Shown here: piece by piece, positions 36,641-61,415 of the stretch
Position numbering within the stretch: the first letter of the stretch is position 1
Layout: the number at the start of each line of letters is the position of its first letter
Source of the DNA: Ulva prolifera
Taxonomy: Eukaryota; Chlorophyta; Ulvophyceae; Ulvales; Ulvaceae
DNA: 64,000 nt
Direction: 5' to 3'
NCBI GenBank assembly: GCA_023078555.1
Contig: CM041199.1
Location: 10,031,943-10,095,942 of the forward strand
Notes under the pieces: generated by a model
Seen by the model: only the letters and a program-made list of their open reading frames with translations
The model's database searches: none
What the model was told of the DNA's origin: nothing
Position numbers and translations under genes: made by a program

Positions 36641-36860
36641 CACTAGGAGAATGGCGACACTCTGAAACGGATCCGGGTGTCGTCCGCCAGATTCCGAAAG
36701 TCCGTTTGCTCTCTGATACCTTTCCGACGTCATCGGATGCGAGCAGTCGGATAGACCTTGGACTTTGGCACCGAATCATCCGCCGACCCAGGTATAATCT
36801 GCCGGACTGTGGACGTACCTTACCGCTGCAAGTGGCCTTCGCATGTCCGCGCCGGCTGCC
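36641..36860. repeat. Left TIR and subterminal repeat zone of CACTA element
   Basis: The 20-bp terminus is followed by a stretch with about ten TCCG or CGGA words in both orientations (CGGATCCG, GTCCG, ATTCCG, TTTCCG, ATCGGA, GTCGGA, CATCCG, GCCGGA). In other CACTA elements such repeats bind the accessory transposition protein; that role is inferred here. Confidence 0.75.
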
Positions 36861-37357
36861 ATGATACGAGGTCACTTCGGGCCAAGCCCGCGCTAACAGT
36901 GGATCGAATGTTACTAATGGTTACTTTATTACTATACACGCGTATCTCACTACAGGAAACTCTTGAGGCCTAGGGACAGGGCATCTGGTCCTTCTCGGCT
37001 TGGGCCTTCACTCAGAGGGCACATTTTGCCATTGTGTCCACAAAGGGCAGATCGCGGGTCTGGCGCTCACGTGGAAAGCTGACCTCAGATTCGAGAATCT
37101 GGAAAGGGGTGGATTGTCTGGCGTGTGCATGAGGCCTGCTTGATGCAAGCCGTCTAAAAAGGTGACATCTTGGATCGTGTGCATCGGGCGGCCTGTCGTG
37201 TGAGGTTGACCCATACGTACACAGCTTACTGTTGAAGACAGTTGACGTCAAAATCGGCAACAGCAGTGTGGGAACACTGGTACACCTGTACCAAATGTTA
37301 GCAAATGGAACGAATTCGTGAAGTGTCACGAGTGTCCAACATTCTATTGCAGTGCAG

Positions 37358-37808
37358 GCGCTCGTGCGTTGGCTTGGATTGCACAGCATTCCGCAGTCAC
37401 TCATATACGTATACATCAAGGTCCATGATCTGCGGCGCGCAGTGACGGCATATCTTGTGGCATATCAGAGTACATGGCCATTCGGCCCGCCGGGCCTTGT
37501 CGACACACGCGGGAGAAAGCGTGGCGTCTACGTCTTCCGTTCAAGATGCAGCACATCGTGGGAACTAAACATATATTTCACATGTGGAATGTTGTAACCT
37601 TGTCCGTTGCAGGAACTGTATATGGACTGCTGGTAGACTTAATCTTGCGATGCGATCAGTGCTGCAACTTCTCAACTTGCGAAGAGTTTGGCCACGACCA
37701 GGTCGATCAATGCCAAACAAAAAACTTCATTACAGACCACTTGCTGATGAGGTTGCCAAATACATAGCCCTATCGTCGCACAGTAGTACCGCAGCGATCA
37801 TCGTTTGA
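37358..37808 (+). CDS. Possible small gene near the left end (copy 2)
   Basis: Identical to 10294-10744. It lies 0.5 kb inside the left end and just before the palindrome cluster. No family is recognised, and the exon structure is uncertain. Confidence 0.3.
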
Positions 37809-38000
37809 GCGCAGCGACCTTGCCTTCAGCAAGAAAAGACGTCGTATGATGGTGCACACGCCCCCCCTCAATGGTAAATTATCGAATTCATCATGGAGTT
37901 ACTACATGCTGTCCTCAAAACATGTGTTCCTGGGGGCCGTGTGGTTGCCCAGTTGTTCCCACTGCGCTGGTCTCGTTCAACATTGCATATAGCAGCGGCG

Positions 38001-38400
38001 AGCTCTAGAGCTGATAGAGCGTAGGAGATCTCCTACGCTCTATCAACGCACGCGAAGCTATTCGGCTACGTCTATCAGCGCATTCAACGTGCAGGGCGGT
38101 CAAACAAGCAGATTCACCTCCTTTTCAAGACACACCGCGTTGCTGGCACTTCAGCATAGGTCCCTCCAGCAACAGATCTCACAAACGCCTCAGCAATATT
38201 GCTGAAGCATTTCAGGTATTGCAATTCAGGGGTTTATACCCCTGAATTTGCAGATGCGGACATCACTGACCTGCCACAACAATCGTGAGGTGAGAACTGG
38301 TCTCCTCTGTGCCGTCTTTTGGCAACCACTTTTGGCAACTGTGCACTAGTGCACAGTTGCCACTATTTATACTCATCTCAAGCTTGAGATGAGTATAAAT
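38001..38400. repeat. Cluster of perfect palindromes (copy 2)
   Basis: Within 400 bp there are six near-contiguous inverted repeats of unrelated sequence: 38001-38012 (12 bp), 38012-38045 (34 bp, half-site TGATAGAGCGTAGGAGA, no loop), 38190-38205 (16 bp), 38223-38248 (11-bp arms AATTCAGGGGT, 4-base loop), 38333-38362 (30 bp, half-site TGGCAACTGTGCACT) and 38365-38400 (36 bp, half-site ATTTATACTCATCTCAAG). A further 8-bp stem, GTTGCTGG...CCAGCAAC, lies at 38139-38173. All sit between the small left gene and the zinc-finger gene. Function unknown; candidates are a replication or transposition signal, or protein-binding sites for dimers. Confidence 0.95.
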
Positions 38401-38444
38401 CTATTGTGCTGGATGCTCTATCTAAGAGGATGTCCCAATTTCAG

Positions 38445-39577
38445 GCAACAACTGGAGACAGCACAACATCATGGAGTCGTGAAGTACCAACCCCGCAATC
38501 AACCGACTGCGGCTCAGACAGAAAAGGTCAAGTGGTTGTGCTTGATATGTACTGTAGGCTCTAAGTCTGCGCTGCGGAGGCATAGCTGCAGTGTCAGCGC
38601 TAGCACAGGTAAGTCAATTATACATGTCTCTCTTATAAGTCTGGCGCCAAGCAAATGTCAAAGCTGCTGATACTGTGACGGTCCGTTCACTAACGGTCTG
38701 TACACTGACGGATTTCGGACATTTCGAGCCAACAGGTTTGCACGTACTGGATATGAGAGGTGCAGCAGGTGAATGTGTGGCATTCATGACCTTTAATCTG
38801 ATCACGCATTGCAACTATCTCACATCCTTTCTGTGCAGGGTGTTTTGCGATCCGGGGCCAACCAAGAGAACCAGATGCAAGGAGCTCACAAGAGTGATTG
38901 CAATAGAAAGCGGCTAGCAACAACTGCTCAACCATCCAAGTGTAGTAAGCGGCCTGCGCCAAAGGTATGATACCACACAGTCGACCCGAGGAGATCATTT
39001 GTATGCACGTGAGCAGTCTATGACTGGATGAAACATACAAGTATGGATACAGATTTGCAACATATGTTACTGGCCTGCAGCACCAGCAACGCTGCACAGC
39101 TTACAGTTGAACTGACACCTAGAGAACATCTCAGCATACTCATACATGCAGGTTGTGCCTGGCAGGCACTGGTCCCTTGCAGAGAGCATCCCATCAGCTG
39201 CAACAGAAGTGAGGATGGCTAGCAAGCACACAAAGACTCACCAGAGGCAGCCTCGTCCGAGCAGTAGGCTCCACAGCTATTCCACCTCCTTTCTAGTGAG
39301 CATGAGCCATTGCATCGCAGTGTACTTACCTTGTGTGTTGTGAGGGATCCCTGGGGAGCCGTGGGGTTGCAGGAGCAGAGTGCAGTGGACCAGTAGACGC
39401 TGTAATCATGGATATAACATGATCAGGAGCAACTTGTGATTGATTACTGCTGCACAGCCACTGATCTACCGTGCATTCTGCCTGGGACGCATGGCCTCCC
39501 GCCAGCATACGGAATCTGCCCTTTTCGCAAAGCAGGCAGAATCTGCCATCCAAATTGTCGAACTGGTCCTAATTTAG
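38445..39577 (+). CDS. Gene with C2HC-type zinc finger and basic Gln/Ser-rich tail
   Basis: Predicted exons: 38445-38608 (ends at the strong donor GTAAGT), 38839-38964 (after TGTGCAG, ends at GTATGA), 39152-39295 (after ATGCAG, ends at GTGAGC) and 39536-39577 (ends TAG). The last three are all in phase 0, and the joined tail ends ESAIQIVELVLI. Exon 1 holds a likely zinc knuckle, WLCLICTVGSKSALRRHSC. Its spacing loosely resembles the finger at the transposase N-terminus (FQCLACGEKFARHTTAQNHH). Exons 2 and 3 are basic (NRKRL, HTKTHQRQPRPSSR), as in a nuclear DNA-binding protein. One exon between 1 and 2 may be missing, because their phases do not match. A role like the TnpA protein of plant CACTA elements, binding subterminal repeats, is only a guess from size, charge and position. 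Confidence 0.5.
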
Positions 39578-39743
39578 TGGAATCTGCTCGTGGACGTACG
39601 GCAAATTCTGCCTGTTGTGGCAACATGGGGCAATACTGGCGCACTTCGGAGCGGCATGTGTGCAAGGACTGCAACATCGCCATACAGCCCGCGGCTAGCC
39701 AATCAGGGAATGTAGAAGGGCACACACGGTATAGTATCTACGA

Positions 39744-40484
39744 GCTAACAAATATGTGAAGGCGCGCTTGTAATCCAGCGTGTTTTGGAGCTGTATAGCA
39801 GACGCGCGCAACAGCCACTCTGCCGATCGCTGTTGTCGTGGAATGTCTTGCTCAGGCTCCACGGTCCGCCAACACCCCAGAGTGCAGTCCAATGTGATCA
39901 GCATCACTTCTGCATCAACTTCGACGAAATTAGTGTGCAACTGAAGCCGACATGTACAGGCTGAACCGGCCTTGCACTGCATTGTCCAAATAGGGCAGTT
40001 TGCATGAGATCACCACCGCGATGCGGCTTTGGCGCACTTGCCAACATGTCGATAGACTAAAATATATGAATGATATTGACGCCGGCGGCATAGCAAATAA
40101 CCTTTCAAGGACTCTGAACCAGCTGTTTCCAAGTGGTCTGCCTTTCCAACATCAGCCCCAAACCTAGCCAAATGTGCCCCAGTTGCCCTCATCAAATTCA
40201 GCATAGTGGCATCTGAAATTTGGCCCTTTCGCCCTCAGGGACCAGCCGAGTTTCCTGTAGTGTCTGGAAACGACTGGACTGGACACGGTGCAGGTATACG
40301 TGGACCCATACTCATGGCAACTGACATCGACTTTGGTCAGGAGACGCTGCAGCAGGAAGCTGGAGGCAGGCTCACAATAGCGGTGACTTTCTGCATCGCC
40401 CAAGATAGCGTTGGTCCGTATTTCAGGCTCGGCAGCAGTCCATGTAGTGTTGGTCGTCGCCCTGTGAATGGTGGCCGGAAAAGC
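39744..40484 (-). CDS. Unknown minus-strand gene
   Basis: Three exon-like minus-strand segments with GT/AG edges: 40484-40300 (after TATGTGCAG; contains AEPEIRTNAILGDAESHR and FLLQRLLTKVDVSCHE), 40212-40100 (after TTTCAG; contains RFGADVGKADHLETAGSESL) and 39940 to about 39744 (after CTTCAG; contains TNFVEVDAEVMLITLD and RQQRSAEWLLRASAIQLQ). The plus strand is also open over part of this stretch, so the strand call rests on composition and splice sites. The two stop-free palindromes lie just upstream of the first segment. No family recognised. Confidence 0.4.
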
Positions 40485-40522: not shown

Positions 40523-40656
40523 CCAGAGTGGCCATTCGGCGAATGGCCACTCTGGCCGAGTTACGTCATCATGCTCCAGGTAAGGCGTGCGCTCGTCCTC
40601 CTGGACGCGAATGCATGCGCTGGTCCAGAGTGGCCATTCGCCGAATGGCCACTCTG
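40523..40656. repeat. Two stop-free palindromes (copy 2)
   Basis: Identical to 13459-13592: palindromes at 40523-40555 and 40626-40656. Frames on both strands stay open across them. Confidence 0.95.
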
Positions 40657-40896
40657 ACGGGGTGCTGTCATCGTGCTCCACCCGAGTGCGCAGGTGCCGT
40701 TGCAATCGGGGCGTCGTGCTGCATGAAATGTACGAATGGAGGATTGTGTGTTTGATACGGTTAATCGCTGGCGGTCGTAGCTTACCTGGCATCGCAATTC
40801 GATACTGTCGAAGTGACTTGGAATTCCGTTGCAGATCTGCGCATCTCGTCACCAGTGACCGCTTTCGGTAGTAGTATATTGACATACGTATTAGCG

Positions 40897-43800
40897 ATGG
40901 ATCCACGCCTTGCAGCACTGGTCGCAGGACTGCCAAGTACCCAGCATTGGCTGACTTCCACGCGCAGCGGAGACTTGCTTGTCGGTCGCATGCGCACTAG
41001 CCGAATCCCAGTAGTGGGTAGTTTGATTTCTAGAGACGGGCGTTTCACTGACCCAGCCCGCGTCGGCACCAATAGCGGTCCAGCAAGCGGGCCTGGGGTG
41101 GCTGTGTGGTGGGGCCTTGGGGAGGTCCTGCGAGACAACGTGGTGGTAAGCCGGGGGAGTGAGCTGGAAACGGCCAAGGGAGTGGCCGTTACTACCTTTC
41201 TCGTGCTCTCCGGCTGGCTCCACGAGCAGGATATGTTCGTGTCCTCGTGGGAGGGCAAAGGGAGGACCCCTGCTGGGTGCACGGAACCCCTGCGGTGGAG
41301 GCCTCTGCTGGGAACGAAGGAGGTGTGTGCCTCCTGGTGGGCTGGTGGTAGAACTGCTGACCACGCTCTACTGCAACTGCCTGTTTACTGCGGAGGGGCG
41401 TAGCCTGACTGTGGAGTGGGTTCAGTAGTCAGTGCATCCAGCTATGCAGCATAAGGTTACGGGCCACGTATCTGAGTCAGGATTCCCCAAGACTACAGTC
41501 ACGGAGGAGCGAGATCCGGAGCTCGCCGAGCGGTTCGATATCCCACAGGCGAAGGTTGGGGAGAAGCGCAAAGCCGCTGACCCCCCGCCTCCTGACGGTG
41601 TGCTCACTCCCCGTCTGCTGCCCTTTCTTTGGGAGTCATGCAGTCCGTGTCCACCGCGGGCGTGCCAAAGGCCACCGCGTCCATGCATAAGGTCCACATG
41701 TGTTCTTGGGCGTGTCCCAGAGGTGATGGAAGGGGAACGTTATAAGAGGTGTCGGTGCAGTTTTCTATTGCCAAACCCCCCGGCACGTCGTGTGGGCATG
41801 GGCTTCTTTCATGTCTGGCCTCTCCCCGCATCGTGTCAAACTGTGGACTGCCGGAAAGCAGACACCCGCGGCGGGGGGGGCCGGGTCCTCCAGGAGCAAG
41901 GAGAGACCAACCTCCAACCTCCCTGATGACCTCAACCCACTGGTGGGGTGGGTGCTATATGAAAACGCCCACTACGAAAGTCTGGAGGGCATCAAGGAAA
42001 AGAAGCTCGAACCGTCTCAGTCACTAGCGCGGCACATTGGGGACCGGTGTCACGCGCTGCTGGCCAACACAAATGGGGTCCCCTCCCAGGTGGTGTACCA
42101 ACTGACTTCGGGCGCGCCGGTACTAGCGGACATGCACGTCTGGCACTCAGACCTCATCGAGGCGTTCGTGCGTTCCTGATATTTTCTATGATTCCGGTGT
42201 GGTCAGGCATGGCTGCCTGTATGCTTGTGCGTTGTCTGGCTCTGCAGTGCATTCTTTCCACCACGCATGCATGAGTGTGGCTAGGCGGCCTCTGATTCCT
42301 CCTACACCTCAAGCCTGCCCAGTCACAGGCCTGTGATCGATTTGTGTAACATGCCTCAGATCGTGCAGGATATGAAGTTCCTCGGCGAATTCGTCACCAC
42401 CCTCTACAATCTAGCCCCCTGGGTGTTGGCGTATGCGGCGGAGCATCCGTTGATGGATTGGTCAGGGGTGCGAGTCGCCACTGTTCTGAACATCCCTTGG
42501 GCGGCGTGACACTGTGGTGCTACTTGGCCTAACCCCCCATGTCGTTCACTCCTGGTTCTGGCCGTGCAGGGAGACAGGGTAGCCCGAGCCCTCCGTCCGG
42601 CGTGGCTTTCTGTCAAGTCCTTCTACTCCCACATCATGGGAGCATGTTCAGGGCTGCGGTCGTCCACACAGGACCTGGCGGCTTTCGCCAGTAGCGGGGT
42701 CCATCTCTTTATGCATGCGTATGTGCGCCTCGTTGCTTCAGCAATGACATGCAGCCCTGGGGCGCCTGACCTAGAAAGGCGGGGTGGAGAGGACATCCCG
42801 GCGCTGGAGCCCAGTCTCCTTGATCCCACCTTTGCCGCCATCCTGGTGTGCACGGTCAATCACAGCTGTGCGTCGCCAGCCTGTCATGTACACCTGTATA
42901 TGGATCTGTAGTGTCCTGTTGTATCCCCCCGGGTGGGTCAACACAACGCTTTGCAGTCAGTGTGAACGCCTGAACCCCGCGGTGCATGCAGGCTTGGTGA
43001 AATCGGGGTACGGTCTGCCTGTCAAGAGGTTGGCTGATGCGCTGATTCCATTGTGCCCGCCCCACACGCTCTGGCACTGGGCGCTCAGGAGCTGGCGGCA
43101 CCTGGCTGTGGCGCAAACAGTCCCCGCGGCGAGCAGTTCGGGCGATCCCGTCTCCACGCCCGCCGTTCGCCTGAGGCCAGTGACGTTCCCGGGTTTCAAG
43201 GACTGGGATTACGCCGGCGCTGAAGAACTCGCGAAGCAGTCCATCGCCAAAGGGATGCAGAGTCCAACCTGCTACAGGTGCATACCCCATCGATGTCTGG
43301 CCCTACGGTTCGTTGTCGTCTGCATCAGAACCTGCTACACGGATGTAATGTCATTGGCGAACACTGCTGTGGCCACCTCCTACTCTTGTATCAATTGCAT
43401 GCATGCATGTGCCCTGTGACTCGCGCCGTGCGCTGTATGGTGTGGGCTTATCGGCTATGGTTCGCAGGGAGGAGCTCGTCAACATCCCCGATGGCATCCT
43501 CGCCACCCTCCCCGCGGGCTGCCGGCAGCCCCCTGCGGTTGCGTCCCTGGGACAGGGGGTGCCGATGATGCGAGTGCCCGAGGCCACCACCAGCGTCGAG
43601 CAAGTGGGAAGAGCTCGGCAGCAAAATCACGCGAGAAGGCGCTGCTGCTGCGAAAGTGCGGCATTCCAGCACCCCTGAACGCGGGCACTGCCACCGCCGG
43701 TACCAACACCGGCGACAGCGCCACGCAGGAGTCTAATGGCGAGGCGAACCCCGCCCGCCGAGCGTCCGGCGGCGCGGCGGCGCTTCCGGTGACCCTCACA

Positions 43801-45309
43801 GGCGCACGGGCCGGCGCTGGGCCAGGGGCACCCGCAACTCGGCAGGAGGGGGGCCCGGGGGAATCAGCAGCGCCTGCGGGGGGTGGGCCTGCGTCGGGGG
43901 GGCTGAACCCTGGGGAATCAGCCGGGCCTGTGGGCGGTGGGCCTGCGGCGGGGGGGCTGAACCTGGGGGAATCAGCCGGGCGTGTGGGCGGTGGGCCTGC
44001 GGCGGGGGGGCTGAACCTGGGGGAATCAGCCGGGCCTGTGGGCGGTGGGCCTGCGGCGGGGGGGCTGAACCTGGGGGAATCAGCCGGGCCTGTGGGCGGT
44101 GGGCCTGCGGCGGGGGGGCTGAACCTGGGGGAATCAGCCGGGCCTGCGGGGGGTGGGCCTGCGGCGGGGGGGCTGCACCTGGGGGAATCAGCAGGGCCTG
44201 TGGGGGGTGGGCCTGCGTCGGGGGGGCTGCACCTGGGGGAATCAGCCGGGCCTGTGGGCGGTGGGCCTGCGGCGGGGGGGCTGAACCTGGGGGAATAAGC
44301 CGGGCCTGTGGGCGGTGGGCCTGCGGCGGGGGGGCTGAACCTGGGGGAATCAGCCGGGCCTGTGGGCGGTGGGCCTGCGGCGGGGGGGCTGAACCTGGGG
44401 GAATCAGCCGGGCCTGCGGGGGGTGGGCCTGCGGCGGGGGGGCTGCACCTGGGGGAATCAGCAGGGCCTGTGGGGGGTGGGCCTGCGTCGGGGGGGCTGC
44501 ACCTGGGGGAATCAGCAGGGCCTGTGGGGGGTGGGCCTGCGTCGGGGGGGCTGACTCCCCACGAGGCTGTCACCGCGGGCCCCCGTGGCACCTCTGCGCC
44601 CCCACATGCAAGGGCACAGGAACCCCTCCCCACCGCGCAGCCGACTGCAGATGGTGGCGATGGATTAGGGTTCGTTCTGGGCGGTGCCGAGGACATCGCC
44701 CAGTTCGCCGAACCCCTGGCAGATGCCTTGCACCTCGACTACGAAGATACGTTCGGCGCTTTTAGTTCTGACATCGATCCGGGGCCTGCGGATTCGGCGG
44801 ACATTTCAGTAGATGAGGACGACCTGGCGACAGATGATCCAGAGGTGAGGCCGTCCCAGTTGTACTACCTGCGGGACACTGCTGGCACGATGCAGCTCAC
44901 CCTGGCAGAGTCTCCCGCTGCACAACAGACCACCGTTCAAATGGCCGCCACCTTCGCCACGTCCGAAGGAGAAGGTTTCGGGCGAGCTGCTCAATTGCGG
45001 TTCATTGTCGTTGCATGCGACTTAATGATGCTCAGCAACCCCCGTCTGCGTGAGGATGATAACGAGCGCCTGGAACGCGTCAAGGCGATCGTTTCGGCGT
45101 ATGGGCTGGAGCCTGACAGTGCCACAATAGCAGAGGTTGTGGCACTGATCCGGAAGGTATGCTCCGTTCTGAGGTTGCCTCTCGTCCCGTGCTTGACTGT
45201 TGCGCAGGCCCTCCCTGTCTCCCAGTTGCCACTCTTGCGTCCTGCCCCCTTACACCCATTTCATTATTCGAGGCTGCTCACCGTACAGGGACGCAACGTG
45301 GCCGAGTGA
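40897..45309 (+). CDS. Long multi-exon gene of unknown function with coding minisatellite
   Basis: ATG at 40897 (MDPRLAALVAGLPSTQHW). Predicted exons: 40897-41145 (donor GTAAGC), 41450-41597, 41761-42167, 42369-42467, 42570-42845, a segment from about 42992 to 43279, then the frame through the 54-bp repeat. After the repeat come an acidic part (DSADISVDEDDLATDDPE), an exon with LREDDNERLERVKAIVSAYG, and a last short exon ending RNVAE and TGA at 45307-45309. Phases agree across the first five exons. Repeat units encode GLNLGESAGPVGGGPAAG. One unit has GAATAA in place of GAATCA, an in-frame stop at 44295-44297 present in both copies. The gene is convergent with the protease gene. I know no homologue; it could be an accessory transposition protein or cargo. 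Confidence 0.5.
43860..44555. repeat. 54-bp G-rich coding minisatellite (copy 2)
   Basis: About 13 tandem units of 54 bp (18 codons). Variants ordered along the array (CTGAAC or CTGCAC; GCCGGG or GCAGGG; GTGGGC or GCGGGG) suggest that a block of several units was duplicated as a whole. The plus strand has runs of 4-8 G suited to G-quadruplex formation. The minus strand is also open (405 codons, Pro-rich), which I treat as a shadow. Confidence 0.95.
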
Positions 45310-45835
45310 AGCTGAACGACGAAGGGGGGCTACTATGAGGAGTGCTGGAGTGCGGATTAGGGTGGGGTCGGGGAGGGGGGGGAGGGGGGGGGTTTCCGTA
45401 GAATGTTGACTCTGAAAACTACCTTTGCGAACGAGTAATGATTAGCACGTACACCAACGAGCACCAGCAATGCATGGGCCATTCCAACTGTAGATGCAAA
45501 CAGACTGAAGGTTGTCACGCCTCAGTACACCTTCTTAACAAAGGTGGCTCTGGCCTTTTATCGCAGCAGACACACGAATGGTATACATCTACCCAACACT
45601 GCATTACAACATCAACGCCGGGGGAGGCCTGTGGCCACAGTAACACTATCTCATGACTGCTATGGCGTGCCGTGCGCGTCCCGCCCACATAGCCGCCCCC
45701 CATTCCCTGGGAGCCCCCTCACAACCACCCCACCTGCCAGCTAGTACAATGGGCAACCCTGTCACGAATACCCGCCTACCTGGCGCTTAGCGGTCGGTGC
45801 ATTGAAACCTCTCGGCAAACGCCGTGTAGGGATAC
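45310..45835. other. Space between convergent genes (copy 2)
   Basis: 3' regions of two convergent genes, with a G-rich tract at about 45364-45391. The 72-codon plus frame (45438-45656) is not convincing. Confidence 0.6.
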
Positions 45836-46614: not shown

Positions 46615-46657
<43 letters not shown>

Positions 46658-49208: not shown

Positions 49209-49532
49209 CCTGTCTAACCAAGTTGGGGATCTAAGCACTACGGGCGTGTTGTACCAAGCTTATCGCGTCGCCGTCATCCAGTATCTAATACATTTAACTA
49301 TCAACAATTATTCAATCGATCCGCAGTGCCGGTACCATGATGTCGGAGCCGTCGCCGATGCTCGAAGCAGGCGCGAAAGTGGCTACACGCGCACCACGTT
49401 TGGCGAATGACTGTTGGCTGCTGCCGATAATGCACTGGTGGCCATACAGTGCCAGAGACTGGGCGCCAACTTATCTGCTGTAGCATGTGCCGTACTGGTA
49501 TCAATGGGAGAGCGCACGATGCCCCCAGTGCT
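49209..49532. other. Spacer between transposase stop and protease start (copy 2)
   Basis: 324 bp, relatively AT-rich (for example ATACATTTAACTATCAAC). A possible promoter or terminator zone; no gene seen. Confidence 0.4.
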
Positions 49533-52500
49533 TTACACGGTTCGGCCAGAAGCCTTGTTCGCAGTGGCCCAATACTGCACACTTTGTGCACCCCTCCGGA
49601 CTGGAACTAACTGGCATGGAACTACGTCCAAGTCTACGACGTATCTGCCGCCATACGCCCGAGACCCCCTGTTTGCACCCGCCACACCGAAAAACTCAGG
49701 GGGACGTTTCAACACGGGATCTGGGGCGCGGGCTCCCGGGGTGGCTGGCAAGGTGCATTTATACAGATCAGCAACCTCCAGGTACAATGGGTTTGGTTCC
49801 GCAACACAGGACACGCAACTCACGACATCCCGGGGCTGCACACACGCCCTCATGAAATACTGCAGTTCCCCGACGTAATACGTCACTGTCCCGCCACCCC
49901 CGTCCCCGCCCCCCCCAATGAGGTACCTCAAGAGGCACCACTTGTTGTCTTTCTTCCCTTGCGTAGACTGTTGTGCGCAGCTGAACATGTCTGCAACGCG
50001 GGATTGCATCTGGTGGAACTTCAGAAGTGTTACTGTACCCTCACGGCGAGCCTCATCAACAGTGCCATCCACCTTCAGGCCCAGAGCTCGGTGGATGGCC
50101 ACGCGGCGTGCATATCCAACCCCCCGGCGACAGTGAGTTGGCCAGCCCTCATCCTGTAGGGAATCCTGATGGAAGAGGAGGTACGGCAACCCTGTCAGCT
50201 CATCTCCCACGACGTCAAGGGGGAGGACCTCTGCTGTCTCAGACTGGGCAGGAGCCCTGCCCACCCCGACGACCCTGCCGGTGATCCGGTCGCTGTCAAT
50301 TGATTGCTCCCTGTCAGCGGATCTTCCATTGCGAGTTCGTGCCCGCCGGCGTTTCTCCGTCGTTATGGCATACGACAGTGAGGTCATGGCAGCAGGCAGG
50401 GAAGCTGCATCATGCAGCAGCCGCATACATGTGCGGCGCAGCAGTTCATCGCTCACGTATACTTGTTCAGGGCAACGAGTCAATCGATATTTGATCAGTC
50501 TCTTCAAGAGCTGGACCATCCGCTCAATCCAGAATTCAAGAATGAAGAAGGATGCACCGCAGTACCTCACCTGATCCGGAAGGTTACAAGCCGCCAGATG
50601 CAGCTTGTACGTGCTTAGAGCAGCGCCCGCAAACGTCTCCTCCGCCAGCTTGGCGTTCTGCAGCATCAATCGCTGTGCTTCCGTGATTCGGGCCGGTGTG
50701 TGCTGACCCTCTTCATATCTGAGAAAGTAGAGGGCCCCTGCTCGCAGGAGCCCCCACGACTGCTCAAACACTCTGCGTATGCGTTTGTCGGAGGCTTTCC
50801 ACGGGAGATCGTGCAGGAGGTACAGCGAGAATGTCTCGGTGAAGGCCAGCCAGTCTTCCATGAGCCAGCGACTGCGGTTCCTAGGCAAACAGTCACCCTG
50901 ACTCAGAGGGGCTGCTTCAACAGGAGTGCACATGGTTCCCGTGTCCAAGTAACAGTCCGACAAGTGGCGCAGCCTCGGATGCGAGTAGGGCGTGCTGGCG
51001 ATGTGACTGCGCACTTGGTGATGTCGGTGTACACCTTCTTGGAAAGAGAGGTCTGCATGATGTGGGGCGCTCTGGCAGCTATCGCCTTTACGACATCCTC
51101 TGGCAGTCGGAACAGGGCCCGGAGGCCTGCCAATGGCGCCTTCTTGGACTTCTTCCGGCCCAGGGGAGGGAGCCACTGGTTCCAGAAGTCCATGAGCACA
51201 CCGAGCAGAAACACGTGCGCCACTCCGAGCCGGAAGAAATGGCAGGGACTTCAACGCCACAGCGTAGTTCATAATCAATTCCAGACTCAAGGGCGGGGCA
51301 GGGAGCAGCAGGCTGGGGGTGTTGGTACTTGAAGTAGGAGAGGAGACTGAACAGCGGGGAACCTTTTACCCCCAGTAGCTTGTACTCGTCTTTGGCGAGC
51401 TTGGCCCTGGACTTCGGTGTCTTCCGGTCGCAATAGCGTTTCAAGGTTGGTGCGTGGACCTGTAAATCCACAGGCCTGGCCAGGGTTACCACAAGAAAAG
51501 AGCCGTATCACCTACGACGCTTGTTCGGTGTCAGAGGGGCTGGCAGGATGAGATGCGGCGCACAGAGGGGGGGCAGGGGAGTAGGCCGCATGTGCACAGA
51601 TGGCATTCGATGACACTGTAGATGGAATTGCACCTGGGCAGCAATCTTGTCGCCCTTTCGGCCCCTGGCCAGGATTTCTGCCGCCGAGTACTTCAAGCGG
51701 TTGTCAGACTCCCAGGAAGAGGGCTGCACATGCTGGGGCTCGGTCCACGCGGTCCGCGGCGGGTTGCCACCAGTGTCCGGTTGTACACTCCCAGGCACCA
51801 TCCGGGGGTTTGCAGCTGAAGATGCCGCTTCTTCCTCCGGGGTGAGTGATTTCCCTTTCAGAGGCCCGTCGGCATAGCAGGGCACGGGCTGATGCAGAGG
51901 GAGATGGTGTCCCATCCACCTGCATCGCCGTGGCATGCATGATAGCAATTGTAAGCGGGACAGGTACGTGAGGCAGCACTAGCAGGAAAGTGTTTACACC
52001 CGGAAGTGACCACCACGGACCTGACAGTCCCGATGCTTTGGCTTGAGGATTTTGCCCCCACACGCCAGGTTGATGGCCTTTCCAGCCGGGGAGTTGAGGA
52101 AGCTGCTTTTGTCTTTGACAGCTGTTGCCCTGGCTTCCCGTACGCTGTTCAGCAGCCCCGGCTGCAAGAGGAGGTCTTTCAGCGAGGCTTCTTCGCCAAA
52201 GAAGAAAGCTGAGCGCACTGGGACACCCTTCCCTGTGAGATCGACCTCGAATCGCTGTTGAACACAACCAGGGGTTCCGCAGGTATCCGCCAGGTGCTGG
52301 TGATGGTCACACGGATCAAGTGGGGGGGACAAGCTCCAGCAATGGGGACAAACGTGGCGCGTCACAGAGGAAACAGGCGGGACACCCAAGACCGCCTTGA
52401 CGAGGTGGAAGGAGGGAGGGAAAAAGTTGCCATCGGGTAGCAGCAGGTAATGTATGAACCTGCACCACGTATCCACGACCACGTCCTGTATGCGAAAGAG

Positions 52501-53429
52501 GCTCTACAACTGGGCAATCCACATGCACACCGTGAGGACGGTGAGGGCGCCGCCAGTGTATATGTGTTTCATGCGTTCGTCATGCCACCAGGCGCCCGTG
52601 CCCTTCCGGGCCCCTGTGGTGGGGAGCGGGCCGTCGTCATCTGCCTCCTGCATGTGCAACGATCCGGCCAGTCCCACGGAGGAGTACGAGCGGATTCACA
52701 GCATTGCATGTAATGGAAGATGAGGACACACCTCGGATTCGTCTGAACTGTACTCCGTCTCTGAGGAGAAGGCAATGGTGTCTGCGTCTGAGATGTCTGA
52801 GTCGGCGTCTGAAAATTGTGCGGGGCCCTCGGCATAGTCGCTTTCGGACGGTGGGGGCAGCTGTACACAATCCCAACACATCAGAGTTGCTTTGGGCGAG
52901 CAGGCAAGATACAGCAAAGGGACAGGAGCGCTGACACCCATGGCCATCACGAGCCGCTGTCATGCCGAGCTGCATCATGATCAGGCAATCCGGGACTCAG
53001 CACGGTCAACTACCGCAGGTACGCACGTCGAAGAGGTCGTCGGAGTGGGCAGGGTCATTGGGGGGACCCCCCATGTCTGGAGGGGATGGTGGTCTCCCAG
53101 AGGGACCGGCCCCGTCGTGTCTGCCGATGACGTCATCATCTGCAGCAGCGGAGATCGGGCCAGTGGCTGGCCTCGAGACTGGGCCCGCGTCGTCGTGTCC
53201 ACCAGCGGCTCTCCGCGCTGCGGTTGCTGCACTCAGACGACTGCTGCAAGGATCGTGATGGTTTTGGGCGGTGGTGTGCCGGGCAAACTTCTCACCACAG
53301 GCTAGACACTGGAATTTCAACGTACGGTTCCTTCCCCGTCGGCTCGGGAGGGATCAGGCGCTTACAGTTCGCTTTGGCAATCAACTCGTTCACCTCATGC
53401 TTCTTCAGGCTAGACGTCGAATGGGCCAT
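49533..53429 (-). CDS. Tnp2-type transposase of the CACTA element
   Basis: Predicted minus-strand exons: 53429-53023, 52860-52732, 52647-52531, 52485-52021, 51888-51634, 51459 to about 51300, about 51240-51010, and a last exon open to 49533. Exons 2-6 join in phase 0. The N-terminus has a C2H2-like finger (FQCLACGEKFARHTTAQNHH), then an acidic Ser/Asp stretch. Exon 4 has LLLPDGNFFPPSFHLVKAVL followed by HVCPHCWSLSPP, like the PxGNxLPxSYYEAKK...HVCPNDC region of Tnp2. Later come VFLLGVLMDFWNQWL (compare MHLxxLGxxKDFW) and LMEDWLAFTETFSLYLLHDL. LPDQVRYCGASFFILEFWIE matches the LPxQVxxxGPxxxFxxFxxER region. These point to the En/Spm TnpD (Transposase_21/Tnp2) group and its Plavaka relatives; family known, assignment inferred. 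Exon 1 needs a one-base shift in CCTCCC near 53348 in both copies, so the gene may be inactive or the consensus wrong. Confidence 0.78.
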
Positions 53430-53765: not shown

Positions 53766-54386
53766 ATGTCCAACCTGCAGTTCACGTTCCTCCGCGCCTC
53801 GCCCGTCATCATCGAGAAAGAAGTTGTAGATGATGCAGACAACGGAGCAGGGATGCTTGACGTGCTGGTCAGCAACGTGTGGAGCAGGGGTGCCGGCGTC
53901 GACGGGTTGACTTTGACGTCAACCGTCGACAAAGACAGCTCCGTTGATGTCGACAGTGTCGAGAAACTGATGACGTGCATAAAGTACTTCTTCAGGAAAG
54001 GCACAATCGCTGGACTGCTGAAGCCGCCCGTGCTGGTGAAGGCGCTGGGCAAGGGCAGAGGGAGCGTGGAACAAGCGTCGGCAGCCGTCGGCACTGCACA
54101 CTCAACAGCTACGGCCTTGACTGCGGACCCCGAAGCTGACGTGCGTTGGGAAAAGTTGAAGGATGCGGTGCTGATGTGGACGGAAGGGATGAGATCCAAG
54201 GTGGAGGGAATGGCCGCTGCCCACAAGGAAGGCAAGCTCGTGCAGGCACTAGTGAACCTGAACGCCCCAGCCGACGAGAAGGTGTGGGTCGGGAGTATTC
54301 TAACGAAAAAGCAGGCGGACGCAATCGGCAAAGCTGCATATGGGGTACGGCTGCTGTCTCCGACTAACAACGTGATTGCAACCTGA
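53766..54386 (+). CDS. 206-codon protein of unknown function, divergent from transposase
   Basis: A single open frame with a good start context (CCTCCACCATGTCC), ending TGA at 54384-54386. The N-terminal half alternates hydrophobic and acidic residues (SPVIIEKEVVDDADNGAG, VDKDSSVDVDSVEKLMTCIK). The C-terminal half is helical and Ala/Lys-rich (VEGMAAAHKEGKLVQALVNL, LTKKQADAIGKAAYGVRLLS). There is no signal peptide, membrane segment or motif I recognise. It lies inside the CACTA ends, so it is either part of the element's machinery or captured cargo. This is the only complete copy, since copy 1 is cut by the N. Confidence 0.65.
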   Translation: MSNLQFTFLRASPVIIEKEVVDDADNGAGMLDVLVSNVWSRGAGVDGLTLTSTVDKDSSVDVDSVEKLMTCIKYFFRKGTIAGLLKPPVLVKALGKGRGSVEQASAAVGTAHSTATALTADPEADVRWEKLKDAVLMWTEGMRSKVEGMAAAHKEGKLVQALVNLNAPADEKVWVGSILTKKQADAIGKAAYGVRLLSPTNNVIAT

Positions 54387-54611: not shown

Positions 54612-56274
54612 GTGCCTCTGCTGATGCTCGGGTTATGCCGTACCTGTTGCCGCGCCCAACGGTGGCAGAGAAGGGGAGCATACAATACCCGCCCAGACGG
54701 AGGTGACCCGATGTGCAGGAAGTATGCAAGACGGGCGTGGGACCATAACACGGCGCTGCGGAGGAATCCCGACTCTCGCGAGCAGAGGAAGCTTCAAGCG
54801 GCAATGCAAGTGTTCCAGAACTCCAAGGCATGTCCTCCTCCTTGGTCAGAGCTGGAGTGGCCATTCGGCGAATGGCCACTCCAGCGCGTCATGCATTGTC
54901 TTGCACTGCACGCGCCTGGAGTGGCCATTCGGCGAATGGCCACTCCAGCGCGTCATGCATTGTCTTGCACTGCACGCGCCTGGAATGGCCATTCGGCGAA
55001 TGGCCACTCCAGCGCGTCATGCATTGTCTTGCACTGCACGCGCCTGGAATGGCCATTCGGCGAATGGCCACTCCAGCGCGTCATGCATTGTCTTGCACTG
55101 CACGCGCCTGGAGTGGCCATTCGGCGAATGGCCACTCCAGCGCGGCGCGGCCTGCATGAATCTGCACTTGCATGGGCACTGACTGGCCATTCGGCGAATG
55201 GCCACTGTGTTCCAACAAACGTGATTCGTGCGCAGTTCACCGTGAGAGGCGACCGCCTCCCTATTGCTGACGAACCCATGAAAACCCCCCAGGCATGGGC
55301 TATGGAGGACGGTCTGTATGTGTGCGAAGGAATCGCCAAGGTTGCTGCAGCCCAGCGCGCCATCGAAGGGACCGCTGACTCTCCCGTCCAACGGGGCACG
55401 AGACCAAGGAAGACCGGGAAGGTACAATCTCACCACACGCTGTACTGCACGCCTGAGGGTGGGCATTAAGTGGTACCAGGATTGCACGGGCGCCTGTGTG
55501 AGCGGCATGTGCCATGATTCGAGACAGCCATGCGGGTACAGGCTCCTACCGCATCCAAGTCAGGAAGACGGGGCACTCATTCCAGCAGCGGACGGCGCAC
55601 AATGCTCGCTGACTTTTCTCCCCGGCGGCCAGGGCTCCAGCGAGAACCAAGGGCAGACCGCACTGCTGATCACGACAGTGAGCACCAGCCGGACGAGGTG
55701 GGTCACGATCAGACGGAGGAAGATGAAGAGCCTGATTCTCCCCAGCGTGCAGACGATCGATGCAAGTCCCCGGAGATAGAACTACAAGTCGTGGCGCCGG
55801 TATGTCCTCTTATGATTTGTGCCAATGTGTGCCTAGTCCGATTGTAATTGCCCCACCCATCATCAGACCAGGTGTAGAAGCGCATGTACGTTGCAGAAGC
55901 CCAACAAAGCTCTCGAGAAGCGAAAGGCCAAGGCAGACAAGGAGGCCGCCCTACAAGCGCGTAGGGATATTCGGAAAAAGATTGAGGATTGCAAGGCTAA
56001 GCTGGCAACGCATCAGCCCAAAAGCAAGGGTCCGAGTGTGCAGAAATTAAAACAACAGAATAGTGTATTGACGGTATATCACTACCCCGATACACTTGAT
56101 CCGACATGTGACACCAATGTCTGCAATCCCGGGTAGTAGCACTATTTGTGTGACAGTCACTTGGACAACGAATGCATCGGAGCCGTGCACTCATGCAGAT
56201 GGTATTGCATGCAGGACGAGTTATCAAAGCTTCAAGACTCCATAATTGACGGCCTCCCGGATGAGGACGAGTAG
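54612..56274 (+). CDS. Multi-exon unknown gene interrupted by a palindrome array
   Basis: The 5' part is open from about 54612 and clearly coding near 54710-54835 (KYARRAWDHNTALRRNPDSR, EQRKLQAAMQVFQNSKA). After the palindrome array come four segments that join in phase 0: 55236-55421 (62 codons, contains EDGLYVCEGIAKVAAAQRAI), 55542-55799 (86 codons, acidic, DEVGHDQTEEDEEPDSPQ), 55897-56073 (59 codons, Lys-rich helix, EKRKAKADKEAALQARRDIR) and 56215-56274 (ends IIDGLPDEDE, TAG). The frame is also open straight through the array, so the palindromes may be translated or may lie in an intron. The charged helix could be a coiled coil. No family recognised. It is inside the CACTA element, in tandem with the 206-codon gene. 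Confidence 0.55.
54854..55205. repeat. 64-bp tandem array carrying stop-free palindromes
   Basis: Five units start at 54854, 54918, 54982, 55046 and 55110, exactly 64 bp apart. Each begins with a palindrome whose arms are GAGTGGCCATTCG and CGAATGGCCACTC around one G (two units have GAATGG at the left arm), followed by a spacer with GCGCGTCATGCATTG. A sixth, solitary palindrome core lies at about 55184-55204. Since 64 is not a multiple of 3, successive units are read in different frames (WPFGEWPL, AIRRMAT, GHSANGHS), and none contains a stop. Confidence 0.97.
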
Positions 56275-56401: not shown

Positions 56402-58112
56402 TAGGGGGTCATCCACTCCCGCTAAAGGGTGGTCCCCCCCCGGGCGCGCAAAATTCGCTGCGAAACAGAGAAATTGGGGAAGGTTTCCACTATTGTTTAG
56501 GTAGGTTGGGAACTCGTAGTGTTCGATCTCAGTCTTGGGAAAAGTCCCCAAGGTTCGTACCCTTTTCGGCACAAATCAGCCATTCTCCCCAATATCGACA
56601 GAACGAAGAGATAACGTCCCCAATCACTCGCCTTCGCTTCCAGAACACGAACCACGCCATAAATAGGCTATAATATGTTGCTATCTTTGTGGTTGGTGTA
56701 TTTCCGTTGTATGCGGGTGACCCGACACAATGTGTACAGTACGTAGTGTCGTTCGGCTGCCAATCAACTTGCTGGAGACGGCAAGCAATTGCAAGCGTCG
56801 ATCGATGGTGTTCTTGTTATATGTTAAGCAGTGTCGTTGATCAATGAGACAACGCCGATTACGTGCGTCGACGGCTGTATGGCACGTTTGCACGCACAGT
56901 TCTTTCGTAACGCGACGCAACCACGTGCTCATCGCATACCAAAACACGACCATTAGATCAGCAGTCGGAACAAGCATTCTGCGCTGTTTGACAGCGTCCT
57001 CGCGAGAAGTAGCCCACATCGGAGGATGTCAGGCACTCAATTTCTCCACGACAGACTCGCCACCTCACTAAACACATCGACCACACTACGCCACTTACTC
57101 CAGGATTTGGACTTGCATCCTGTATGTGGGCCCGTTTGAGCCTCGACCGTTTTTCAGCTCTGCAACTGCATTGGCTTGCACACTGCACGAGCACAAATGC
57201 TCCGAACGGCTGTGACTTGGTTCCTGTCGATGTCCAGGCAACAAAACGAGTTTATATGCTCTCGTGATTTTGCTTATGTTGTCAAGCAGGGTCCATTTGG
57301 TGCACCTCCAGATCACCGTCTGCTGCCCTGTCAGAGAGACAGGAACGATTCGAGAGCGCTGAAACTGCAGATGCCAAGACTCGTAAAATGGTGTGATAAT
57401 TTTCGAATAGACACAGTTAAGCGACTCGCATTGTCTCACTTGTGCACTGTTACTGTCAAGACGCGTGTTAGTCTCATCGAGTGTGCACAGGGGTTAATGC
57501 GCGTGCCTGAGCTGGTAAGCATGCTGACTGTGCATGACGACGTGGAGGGGAGCGTACCTTGCCATCGCGTGAAGTCGCGCGGCAGAAATGAAAGTAATAG
57601 TTGAACCGGTGACCTCATGAGTACACACGACATGCTCTACCACTGGGGCTCACCTGAAGCAACGAGTCCTTTGTTAGATGACTCCTCCCTTGATTATGTC
57701 ATCTATATTCTTGGATCCCCAGATATGGATATCCCACAACAGTTACCCCTGCGTGCCGTCTCAACGTGCACGAATCAGCTGCCTCCCAATTGACAAATTC
57801 GATGCAGCGCGGCCGTCTAGGGGCAACACAACACAATAGCAAAGGTTGTAGAAGAAGTTTGGGAAAGATTGGGAAAGGAGCTGAGAAACTGGGCAACATT
57901 GGGGAGCCGAGGACGGCAAATCGAGGTTCTCCCCAACCAGACCGGCCATTTCAGCGATTGTGACCCATTTTGCCCAAGACTCCGAACTAAAACACTACGA
58001 TTGTTCATTCAACATAGACAATAGTGGAAACCTTCCCCAATTTCTCTGTTTTGCAGCGAATGTTGCGCGGCCGGGGGGGGACCACCCTTTAGCGGGAGTG
58101 GATGACCCCCTA
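56402..58112. mobile_element. Nested 1.7-kb TIR element without its own transposase
   Basis: The first 95 bp (56402-56496) and the inverted last 95 bp (58018-58112) differ at only 3 positions; both start TAGGGGGTCATCCACTCCCG. Weaker similarity extends inward to CGTAGTGTT. TGGGAG flanks both ends (56396-56401 and 58113-58118). The shared flank can be read as the 8-bp TATGGGAG if the terminal TA on the right belongs to the target. A TAGGGG start and an 8-bp duplication would suit a hAT-type element; 6 bp would suit other superfamilies. The interior has only a 142-codon unidentified frame (57176-57604) and a tRNA-like sequence. It is probably non-autonomous and recently mobile, given the TIR identity. 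Confidence 0.85.
57595..57654 (-). other. tRNA-like (A/B-box) sequence, degenerate
   Basis: On the minus strand CCCCAGTGGTAGAGC resembles a tRNA D-arm/A-box, and GAGGTCACCGGTTCAA resembles a variable loop with T-arm/B-box. The acceptor and anticodon stems do not pair well, so I do not call a functional tRNA. It could be a tRNA-derived SINE fragment or pseudogene inside the TIR element. Confidence 0.35.
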
Positions 58113-58118
58113 TGGGAG

Positions 58119-58282: not shown

Positions 58283-58290
58283 GCCTGCAC
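58283..58290. repeat. Left 8-bp target duplication of hAT element (GCCTGCAC)
   Basis: Perfect match to 60888-60895. Confidence 0.95.
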
Positions 58291-58598
58291 CAGTGTTGGC
58301 AAAATACGCGTATTCTCGAAAAAAACGTATGAAATACGCGTATTATGGCCACAGCGTATGGAATACGGCATACGTTGGACTTGGCCAGCGTGTGGGCGCC
58401 TAAGTGCTAGCGCTGTACACAGACTGCGCTTGTAGACGCTTGTCGACAAGCGCGTAGGCTCAATAGTCACCTGCCGCGGCCGCTGCGCTGCGCATGCCGC
58501 CACACAGAGCCTCGTGTAACGTTTAGTCGTGTCTGTAGTATTTTCAGAGGTCATGAGACATTGCGGCTTACGTGCAGCGTGCTGTTCACTGTGGCACG

Positions 58599-60704
58599 AT
58601 GCAGCGGTTCTTGGGGAACAGGCCCGCGGCCGCGGGCCCTGCAGCGCAAAAGCGAGGGCGTGATGATGACTGGAAATCTCACGTAGATATTAAGGAGAAT
58701 CATGGGAAGGGTAGCTATACAGTTGTGTGCAATTACTGCAACAAGGGCGGTGACCAAAAGTGGACCACAACTGCGAACCGCATCGTGGCTCACCTCTGCG
58801 GCACTGGCGGAGGCGTAGCAGCATGCAAGCACATTTCCGACACGATGCGTCAAGCTATGAGTGGAGAGAAGCGTCCCAAGCAGGCTTCGCTGCCGAACTC
58901 CGGCAAGGCGCTCAGCAAGGACGCGGCAGATGCTGCCGTTGCGGAGTGCTTCTATTACAATGGCATGGCGTTCAACATTGCCGACTCTGAGGCGTTCAAG
59001 AAGATGTGCGTTGCCATTGGCAAAGTCGGGCCTGACTACAATCCTCCCTCGAGGCGCCAGCTGGCTGGCAAACTGCTGGACGAGGCTCACGAGTCTGTGA
59101 AAGTCAGGTGTGCACAAACTGCAGAGGTCTCCAAGGCAGTGCTGCAAAATGCAGAGACATTGAAAACGCTCAACGCACGTCCATGAATGCAAGCACAAAT
59201 GAGTCCGTTCAGACCTGCACGAGACACACTCTGAGTCAGTTACGTCATCTCTTCAGATGCCCATGATCCAACCCAACAACAAATGTGCAGGATCCAGCCC
59301 CTCCTCGATGCCGCGCTCAAGCTTGGCGTCACTCTTTGCAGCGACGGCTGGACAGACATCAACCGGCACCCCCTCATCAACATCCTCGTCAACACGCTGG
59401 ACGGGCCGATCTTCATCGCAGCTGAGGACACCAGCGGCCACGTCAAGGATGCTGACTTCCTCGCTGAGCTCATGAGCAAGCACATCAAGGAGCTCGGCGA
59501 GGTGAGCGTCATCCTCATCGTGACCGACAACGCCAAGAACTGTGTCAACGCTGGCACGGAGCTCGAAGAGGTCTACCCTGGCATCAGCTGGGTGGGCTGC
59601 GCAGCGCACTGCCTTGACCTGCTGCTCAAGGACATCTTCAAGCTCGACTGGGCGTCGACGGCGGTCTCGACTACGAAGGGCCTCTGCCGCTTCGTGCGCG
59701 ACACGCAAGCCCCCAATGCCTGCATGCGCGAGCAGACGACGAAGGAGATGAAGATGCCCGGCGATACTCGCTTCGGCGGCAACGTCATCATGCTCGAGCG
59801 CCTGATCGAGCTCGAGGACGAGTGCGAGAAGGTCACGGCATCTGAGCGCTGGGCCAAGTTCAAGGGCAAGAAGAAGAGCAAAAAGCTGCGCAAGGTTGAG
59901 CGCATGGAGGCGCTGCTAAAGGGCAGCAACGAGGAAGGCAAGGCCATGTGGCGCGATGCCAAGGTGCTCGTGGCGCTCTGCGCCCCCATCATGGGGGTCC
60001 TGCGCATGTGCGATGCGGCTGCGCCGTGCGCCACGCAAGTGTACCACGCCATGTGGACGCTGGGCGAGGGCCTCAAGACAGTGGACCTGGGGGGCAAGTC
60101 GCTTACAACAAAGCGGCGCCCGGCGGTGCAGGCCATTGGCGCACAACGCTGGGACTTCATGCATGCGCCGATCTATGCAGCGGCGTATGCACTGAACCCC
60201 AAATTCCAGGACCATGACGTGTCTGGAAACAAGGAGGTGATGGTGGGCCTGCGGGAGATGATGGGCAAGTTGCTGACAGATGAGGGGTACGTCATCGCGC
60301 TGCAAGAGTTTGGCGACTTCAAGAAGGGGCGGGGCGTGTGGGGATCGGAGCTCGCAAAGCGCAGCGCGCTGGCAATGCAGCCACACAAGTATTGGGAGGC
60401 GTTTGCGGATGCCGCGCCGACGCTTGCCAAGTTTGCAGAGCGCATCACTGCGCTGGGGCCAACGGCGTCGCCTTGTGAGCGCAACTGGTCTGCGTATGAG
60501 CATGTTGTGAGCAAGAAGCGCAACCGCCTGAGCGTAGACAAGGCTGAGAAGCTTGTTTATGTGTTCCAGAACCTGCGTACGCTGTATGCGACAGAGCACG
60601 CCAACCGTAGTGAGCTCTATGAGCAGATGTACTTCGATGCATTTGCTTCGGAGGACGAGGGTGGAAGCAGTGATGCCAGCGACGAGGATGTTGCAACAGA
60701 ATGA
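58599..60704 (+). CDS. hAT-family transposase (BED finger, DUF659-type, hAT dimerisation domain)
   Basis: Predicted as two exons, 58599-59107 and 59291-60704, joined by a 183-bp GT-AG intron (CAG|GTGTGC ... GTGCAG|GAT). The join restores the frame (VKV-R-IQPLLD) and gives 640 residues. The start is the first ATG in frame (MQRFLGNRP). A BED-type zinc finger spans about 25-76 (Cys44, Cys47, His65, Cys76). A DUF659-like region spans about 135-300, with GVTLCSDGWTD (Asp188/Asp192), VTDNAKNC (Asp249) and the Cys-His pair GCAAHCLDLLLKD (about 273-276). The C-terminal hAT dimerisation block SPCERNWSAYEHVVSKKRNR starts at about 563. An acidic tail ends the protein. GC and codon use shift to high G+C in exon 2 compared with the flanking CACTA DNA. 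It should bind the element's TIR/subterminal repeats and cut and paste it in the nucleus. The exact third acidic catalytic residue was not assigned. Confidence 0.93.
59108..59290 (+). other. Predicted intron of the hAT transposase gene
   Basis: Donor GTGTGC, acceptor ATGTGCAG. Exon 1's frame runs past the donor to a stop at 59184-59186, and exon 2's frame has no good upstream start, so splicing is needed for one protein. Confidence 0.8.
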
Positions 60705-60744
60705 GCTGCTGTTGTCTTGGTGCATGCACAGATGCTCTGGTCGG

Positions 60745-60761
60745 CGGGGGCTGCGCCCCCG
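60745..60761 (+). other. GC hairpin 40 bp after the hAT stop codon
   Basis: Stem CGGGGGC / GCCCCCG with loop TGC, followed by C-rich sequence. It could form an RNA 3'-end structure; no T tract follows, so I do not call it a terminator. Confidence 0.6.
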
Positions 60762-60887
60762 CACCCCCGTTGCTATGTTCCTGCCTCAAGTGCACTTTGA
60801 CACACGTATTCCCCCACCGCAAACGTATTTGCATACCGTATTCGCTGCCCAGCGTATGCCATACGAAATACAAAAGTGCCAACACTG

Positions 60888-60895
60888 GCCTGCAC
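60888..60895. repeat. Right 8-bp target duplication of hAT element (GCCTGCAC)
   Basis: Directly follows AACACTG, the inverted end of the hAT TIR. Confidence 0.95.
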
Positions 60896-61415
60896 CCTGC
60901 TTACACGAGCGCGACCAAGTCTGATCCGGAAATAACGCCCATGACGCCAATGCTGAAGCATGGCGCCACGCGTGTGTCTACAAGTGCACATCCTTCGTGA
61001 CCATGCGTGAGTATCCCAAGCCAGACGGGTATAAGACGTCGGGAGGCCACCAATCCTAAGGCCCAGCCCGTACTCCCCGCATCCCCGAGGCGGACGTCAA
61101 ACGGATACGAGACGGATCCGAAATTTAGTGCAAGCGTCCGTAGCCCGTCCGCCGGACGCATAGGGAAACCGACTTATCTTCCGTACATCCTCCGGTTGTG
61201 CTCCGAAGACAGGCTTGCCACAAAAGGCGTTGCCCTGGGGCGTACCGGACGGGAATCGGAAAATCCTACCTACCTCTGCCCCACCTCCGCCACAACGATC
61301 CGATACTCCGTGCAACCTACGTCCGGCCTCCACCGATTCTCCGAAGGCTCTCCAACTGCCCCTCCGTACACACTACGTCAGCTCTCCGAATCACCGTGTC
61401 GCCATTCTTCTAGTG
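60896..61415. repeat. Right end and subterminal repeat zone of CACTA element
   Basis: From about 61085 to 61415 the sequence is dense in CGGA/TCCG words (CGGATACG, CGGATCCG, GTCCGCCGGACG, CTCCGAAG, ACCGGACGG, ATTCTCCGAAGG, CTCCGAATCACCG), matching the composition of the left subterminal zone. It ends GTGTCGCCATTCTTCTAGTG at 61415, the inverse of the left terminus. No gene. Confidence 0.75.

Follow-up and report, generated by a model that had tools for sequence, protein, structure and literature searches.

Textbook CACTA transposons contain two open reading frames and are flanked by a 3-bp target duplication (PMC4158355). Longer forms are on record in grapevine, where the CACTAs of the Cactavine set measure 10–25 kb and five of the families carry a ULP domain (PMC2528002). 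Protease domains of this kind also occur outside the CACTA group: the Ulp1-carrying VANC genes of Vandal MULEs are linked to methylation loss, and the review that treats them leaves the role of the Ulp1 domain itself unexplained (PMC13317346).

The window analysed here, a stretch of 64,000 nucleotides from the green alga Ulva prolifera (contig CM041199.1, positions 10,031,943 to 10,095,942), harbors a large element that an earlier note, made from the letters of the window, had described as a CACTA transposon with both ends, a target duplication and an unusually large gene set. It is very probably a cut-and-paste CACTA (En/Spm) DNA transposon of a green-lineage host, with a length of about 17–18 kb, four own genes and many copies. 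Two nuclear loci for the small subunit of RuBisCO, with introns, agree with such a host, probably a green alga; the best PDB sequences for them are 1ir2, 7jfo, 9hvm, 1uw9 and 1gk8, several of which are from Chlamydomonas. We file it as CACTA by its ends, its target duplication and its layout. Sequence comparison documents the ends, target duplication, empty sites, copy number, gene order, frame constraint and defects of the window copy, and all protein functions beyond family resemblance are putative. The coordinates of the features are given in Table 1.

Table 1. Features of the element in the window (positions in the 64,000-nucleotide window; TSD, target-site duplication)
Feature	Position	Strand	Remarks
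Whole CACTA-type element including nested insertions	36641..61415		24,775 bp, of which own 17,135 bp; ends, TSD, three empty sites
Left TSD GTA	36638..36640		
Right TSD GTA	61416..61418		
Left 20-bp terminal inverted repeat	36641..36660	+	Inside TCCG/CGGA-rich 300-bp zone
Right 20-bp terminal inverted repeat, one mismatch	61396..61415	-	Inside TCCG/CGGA-rich 300-bp zone
Nested CACTA-type element, other family	36948..40262		Ends CACTACAGGAAACTC, TSD TCT
Left array, two 31-33-bp palindromes	40526..40654		
Cassette (G1 and protease)	40681..49532		46-79% identical to C7 per 250-bp bin, flanks 91-99%
G1	40891..43281	+	Conserved part, approximate exon limits, may reach ~45.3 kb; frames and collinearity
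C48 (Ulp1-type) protease gene	46034..49259	-	In-frame stop just past His motif in window copy
Tnp2-like transposase gene	49533..53391	-	Approximate limits; ~620 bp including two core exons missing at 52023-52025; N-terminal in-frame stop
G4, 206-aa protein	53766..54386	+	
Right array, six palindromes, period ~64 bp	54855..55207		
Nested element with perfect 27-bp inverted repeats AGGGGGTCATCC...	56403..58111		TSD ATGGGAGT
Nested hAT element (DUF659, hAT dimerisation domain)	58291..60887		TSD GCCTGCAC

Ends, insertion site and family of the element

The left terminus of the element, beginning at 36641, reads CACTAGGAGAATGGCGACAC; the right terminus, which ends at 61415, is the reverse complement of this sequence except for one mismatch. 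These termini (CACTAG...CTAGTG) match the definition of the CACTA (En/Spm) terminal inverted repeat (CACTA...TAGTG), and CTAGTG was found at the matched edge in 29 of the 30 right-end loci read, with locus L035 deviating. TCCG and CGGA words number 11 within 300 bp of the left terminus and 16 within 300 bp of the right one, compared with about 2.2 per 300 bp element-wide, and the eight richest 300-bp intervals (step 50) are all located at the two ends. Subterminal repeated motifs, a further character of CACTA elements, are present as this enrichment together with the palindrome arrays described below. The 20-bp ends, the GTA duplications and the TCCG/CGGA-rich zones had all been placed correctly in the earlier note.

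Some caution is needed for the assembly around the element. Positions 1–27002 of the window are repeated in 27004–54044, which had escaped the earlier note; the first 1647 bp are identical and the remainder is 99.3% identical, with 34 mismatches against 120 indels, 111 of which involve a single base. The sole N in the window, at 27003, falls exactly on the joint between the repeated stretches. On these grounds a true tandem duplication was set aside, and in the simplest reading two overlapping contigs were probably left unmerged and set end to end. A second left end of the CACTA family, at 9577 inside the repeated stretch, would then be an artefact, without a second element. Only 22 of the 120 indels are in homopolymer runs of four or more bases, so that the error pattern has no pure homopolymer signature; a pair of haplotypes, or a genuine duplication of recent date, would be less likely sources of the repeat. 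The element itself sits entirely to the right of the N. A tandem array of 54-bp units (window positions 43843–44682), in or beside the 3' part of G1, differs in copy number between the overlapping stretches.

The genome was searched for an empty insertion site with a 262-bp query in which 120 bp of the left flank, up to and including its GTA, were joined to 142 bp of the right flank. Three other genomic places matched all 262 bp with 97% identity, without gaps and with a single GTA, as the earlier note had proposed to look for; the remaining three matches were the two flanks in the window itself and the repeated left flank. By their sequence, the three places are paralogous uninserted sites, and they show that both ends of the element belong to one insertion event. 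These copies of the insertion site (L043, L044 and L045; C4:2.64–2.71 Mb) are about 29–35 kb apart, as if within a longer repeat.

Queries taken from the element, its terminal 260 bp at the left and 300 bp at the right, were run against the whole genome (88.9 Mb in 44 contigs), in keeping with the check suggested in the earlier note, and at least 40 scored matches were obtained for each end (the best 40 of 74 candidates for the left end and the best 40 of 66 for the right). The best 40 left-end matches were 89–100% identical, most of them 95% or more, and 28 of these 40 had a right-end partner in the same orientation at a distance of up to 60 kb. The spans of these pairs were 17.57–18.48 kb in 17 cases and 17.5–20 kb in 20 of the 28, a set that includes a pairing of the artefact left end (51.8 kb) and two pairings, of 44.6 and 48 kb, that may join different elements. 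A 3-bp target duplication was recognized in six of the eight copies in which both flanks were compared, the two copies lacking it being C5:7251439 and C9:739368. One short copy of 3.4 kb (L007/L013; C3:1549937–1553367) has both ends and a GTG duplication, and is likely to be a non-autonomous derivative produced by internal deletion. The claim of a CACTA element with both ends is borne out by its termini, its duplication, its empty sites and the size of its family.

Three nested transposons have enlarged the window copy to 24.8 kb. The nested CACTA-type element near the left end is missing from the six other left-end loci read (L003–L008), and the two nested elements near the right end are missing from the other right ends read (L010–L038; L034 is rearranged there and uninformative). 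After subtraction of the three insertions and their target duplications, the own sequence comes to 17,135 bp and not to the 20.5 kb estimated previously. Near another copy of the CACTA family (L037 248–802), stretches 96–99% identical to the ends of the nested hAT element were seen.

Gene layout and a diverged two-gene cassette

The window copy (W) was compared with two close copies, C7 (17,993 bp) and C9 (18,148 bp), and with a diverged relative, T (C1:4772563–4790416; 17,854 bp, TSD CCT, one changed base in the right terminus), which is about 74% identical, with long aligned blocks at 66–82%. The order of parts in all four is left end, palindrome array, G1 (+), C48 protease (-), transposase (-), G4 (+), palindrome array and right end. 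From this comparison, the four own genes are supported to different degrees. The comparative exon model scored 369 for the transposase against 95, 74 and 35 for the other three genes. Values of dN/dS by themselves leave the strand open, as antisense frames within the transposase and protease genes are also low, and the strands were taken from motifs, profiles and stops. Beyond G4 (C7 15.3–17 kb), no frame was clearly constrained against T, though the region is collinear at about 68%, and further genes there were rejected.

A census of the gene modules was made in 24 end-paired copies of 17.5–31 kb; of the 28 pairings, those of 3.4, 44.6 and 48 kb and that of the artefact left end were set aside. 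The complete set of four was detected in at least 19 of the 24; G1 was missed in four copies and G4 in one. The figure of 19 is a lower bound, because each module search scored the best 40 candidates and the window's own G1 was among the misses, though evident by alignment. The inference in the earlier note that the additional genes travel with the element is supported both by this census and by the gene order repeated in T. The earlier note's count of five or more unknown genes has to be reduced to four supported own genes, two of them without a known family; the gene close to the right end is that of the nested hAT element. Of the "unusually large gene set", the four own genes stand; much of the excess consists of nested transposons, and plant CACTAs of 10–25 kb, some with ULP domains, had already been published.

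The ~9-kb half of the element that contains G1 and the protease is strongly diverged between versions that have near-identical ends and transposase. Identity of W to C7 per 250-bp bin is 94–98% over C7 0–750, only 46–79% from 1000 to 9750, and again 91–99% from 9750 to the right end, save for a stretch missing in W. C7 and C9, by comparison, share 94–100% in the left half (89–91% in the repeat array) and 82–98% in the right half. In the 24 copies, protease types and right-end types are combined as B-b (15 copies), A'-b (four), A-a (three) and B-a (two).

We read this pattern as an exchange of a two-gene cassette between families. Divergence of the G1-protease half in place, with gene conversion keeping the ends and transposase alike, is a rather less probable account, which would yield the same picture at the ends and is in keeping with the similarity of the left ends of the versions (see the best 40 matches above). 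However, the similar stretch spans the entire transposase gene and the right side of the element, with an abrupt step where the long W/C7 matches restart exactly at the transposase stop codon. Furthermore, the A and B types are about as far apart in G1 (75%) as either is from T (73–74%), whereas their transposases share about 96% with each other and about 75–78% with that of T.

Accessory genes, transposase and palindrome arrays

The C48 profile matched two joined C7 segments, containing the His and Cys parts, at 27.7 bits (cut-off, 20.7), and the Cys piece alone at 19.9 bits. The GHW and DCG motifs of the protease are kept in C7, C9 and T; the frame of W is interrupted right after the His motif. 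The profile score and the motifs bear out the Ulp1-type protease gene of the earlier note, and the window's protease was absent from the 19 matches of a genome-wide C48 search. Protease frames have dN/dS values of 0.27–0.38 versus W and T, and the two main frames show weak constraint versus C9 (0.55 and 0.70, with few changes). In G1, the frames give 0.36–0.67 versus W, and only two of the five main frames are below 0.55 versus T; a protein search with G1 found no relative among 7997 scored candidates. G4 has values of 0.36 versus T (without stops), 0.45 versus W and 0.75 versus C9, and four unnamed relatives with 65–91% identity. Its predicted structure, made from five sequences, had a mean pLDDT of 32 and was useless.

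Could G1, the protease and G4 be host genes that were captured once and are now carried along, playing no part in transposition? The ULP domains of plant CACTAs and MULEs have been described as transduplicated host sequence (PMC2528002, PMC13317346), and the functions of all three genes are putative. However, old passengers without benefit should decay, while here the genes keep the same order and strands in a relative as distant as T, their frames are constrained, and their modules recur throughout the family as counted above. Capture without function seems unlikely.

The transposase was modeled with 10 exons and 1105 aa by comparison of copies, the weak first exon being doubtful. Two database proteins match it, one with 52% identity across 54% of the query and the other with 48% across 11%. 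The Transposase_21 profile (PF02992) gave no match; its genome-wide search, in which the control was silent as well, is uninformative. A DUF4218 match (E-value = 0.011–0.077) fell under the cut-off. Motif I, read by eye on the model, consists of three hydrophobic positions followed by D-G-X3-Y-X9-W, with G after the W where the published motif has P; T has D-A in place of D-G. For the DDE core, in which C(2)C and H(3-4)H are expected between the second D and the last E, two Asp motifs and a C-x2-C after the second Asp were placed in C7 and C9, and the second Asp and C-x2-C in T, with no assignment for H(3-4)H or the last E; the D-D spacing is 106 in the model versus about 80 published. By this partial fit of motifs, the gene probably encodes a Tnp2-like transposase, as also claimed in the earlier note. 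A position in another branch of the CMC group (Plavaka-like) with convergent CACTA ends, to which the unreached Transposase_21 profile and a motif fit weak in places might point, is quite improbable, since the CACTAG...CTAGTG termini and 3-bp duplications are those of CACTA, whereas Plavaka termini are described as TGT..ACA or CATCA..TGATG (PMC12730594).

The last transposase exon is constrained, with dN/dS of 0.24 versus T and 0.28 versus C9. In the window copy the signal for relaxed constraint is mixed: the same exon gives 0.8 versus C7, yet the frame C7 12906–13616 gives 0.28. The stretch of ~620 bp missing from W includes two modeled exons that carry the C-x2-C and the two Asp motifs presumed to be catalytic, and the N-terminal part of the W transposase has an in-frame stop. 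Judged from these lesions and from the stop in its protease gene, the window copy is defective; it cannot make a complete transposase, and other copies would have to supply one.

Both arrays consist of a palindrome whose left form, CCAGAGTGGCCATTCGGCGAATGGCCACTCTGG, is a perfect 33-bp palindrome; the right-side form has the outer bases CTGGAG...CTCCAG, both halves having changed together. The eight longest odd palindromes of C7 are all this one, and the next longest has an arm of 7. A 23-bp core, with up to one mismatch, occurs at 495 genomic sites, compared with none for the reversed control. Among the 50 sites listed, which are all on C1, 49 are positioned 566–1077 bp from a left terminus or 1937–2398 bp from a right terminus, and the remaining one lies 885 bp before a G1 match. 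The first left palindrome of T is at 572 with an arm of 16, but on its right side the arms are no longer than 8; those at the right of C9 have arms of 11–14. A natural guess from this form is a dimer-binding or hairpin site.

A working mechanism can be outlined. The Tnp2-like transposase would cut at the CACTAG ends and insert the element at a staggered 3-bp target, and a DNA-binding protein encoded by the element (G1, G4 or the zinc-finger-like N-terminus of the transposase) may bind the TCCG/CGGA-rich ends, the palindrome arrays or both, like TnpA in plant elements. The C48 protease may strip ubiquitin-like tags such as SUMO from element or chromatin proteins, and so help the element to escape silencing. 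As a tentative extension, this green-algal CACTA lineage may consist of two halves that can be exchanged: one for mobility (ends, transposase and G4) and the other a 9-kb accessory cassette (G1 and the SUMO-type protease, perhaps anti-silencing) swapped whole between families. In such a lineage, the arrays of the 33-bp palindrome close to both ends may act as internal sites of recognition or regulation for a protein encoded by the element.

Comparison with described transposons

Published transposons offer separate precedents for the large size, for Ulp1 and for the subterminal palindromes. The accessible text on the compared systems (PMC4158355, PMC2528002, PMC2613891, PMC13317346) makes no mention of a constant four-gene set with two familyless genes, of cassette exchange or of set-back arrays, and no algal CACTA with Ulp1 was recognized among the open-access papers listed, as judged by titles and the beginnings of abstracts. 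The family described here is a well-documented large CACTA whose four-gene layout is constant, in a green-lineage host outside the land plants studied. Retention of the C48 protease in two diverged families bears on why unrelated transposons keep Ulp1-type genes, and the combination of near-identical ends and transposase with strongly diverged cassettes makes the family a natural test case for the exchange of accessory genes as one unit. The palindrome arrays provide a concrete candidate binding site for testing.

Tgmt*, a 20.5-kb CACTA of soybean, resembles the Ulva element in its large size, CACTA ends, 3-bp duplication, Tnp2 and palindrome-forming subterminal repeats (PMC2613891). It differs in having one large gene that gives both transposase and DNA-binding products, with no C48 protease gene mentioned in the text available, and in the position of its palindromes, which are no further than 159 and 732 bp from the ends (PMC2613891), whereas the Ulva arrays begin ~0.57 kb and 1.9 kb inside. 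The Cactavine elements share the size of 10–25 kb and, in five families, Tnp2 with a ULP-type protease, but they belong to a land plant, and genes of the G1 or G4 type or an exchange of gene pairs are not mentioned in what was available of their description (PMC2528002). Kaonashi and Vandal are likewise transposons with an accessory Ulp1-type domain, whose role is putative there as it is here; they belong, however, to the MULE superfamily and have unrelated ends (PMC13317346). The EnSpm/Plavaka elements of fungi, with a CMC-type transposase and 2–3-bp duplications, differ in that their accessory gene is a TET/JBP dioxygenase and in the termini of Plavaka (PMC12730594). Their accessory genes have been passed between transposon lineages and are proposed to counter silencing (PMC12730594), a situation comparable to that proposed for the G1-protease cassette in Ulva.
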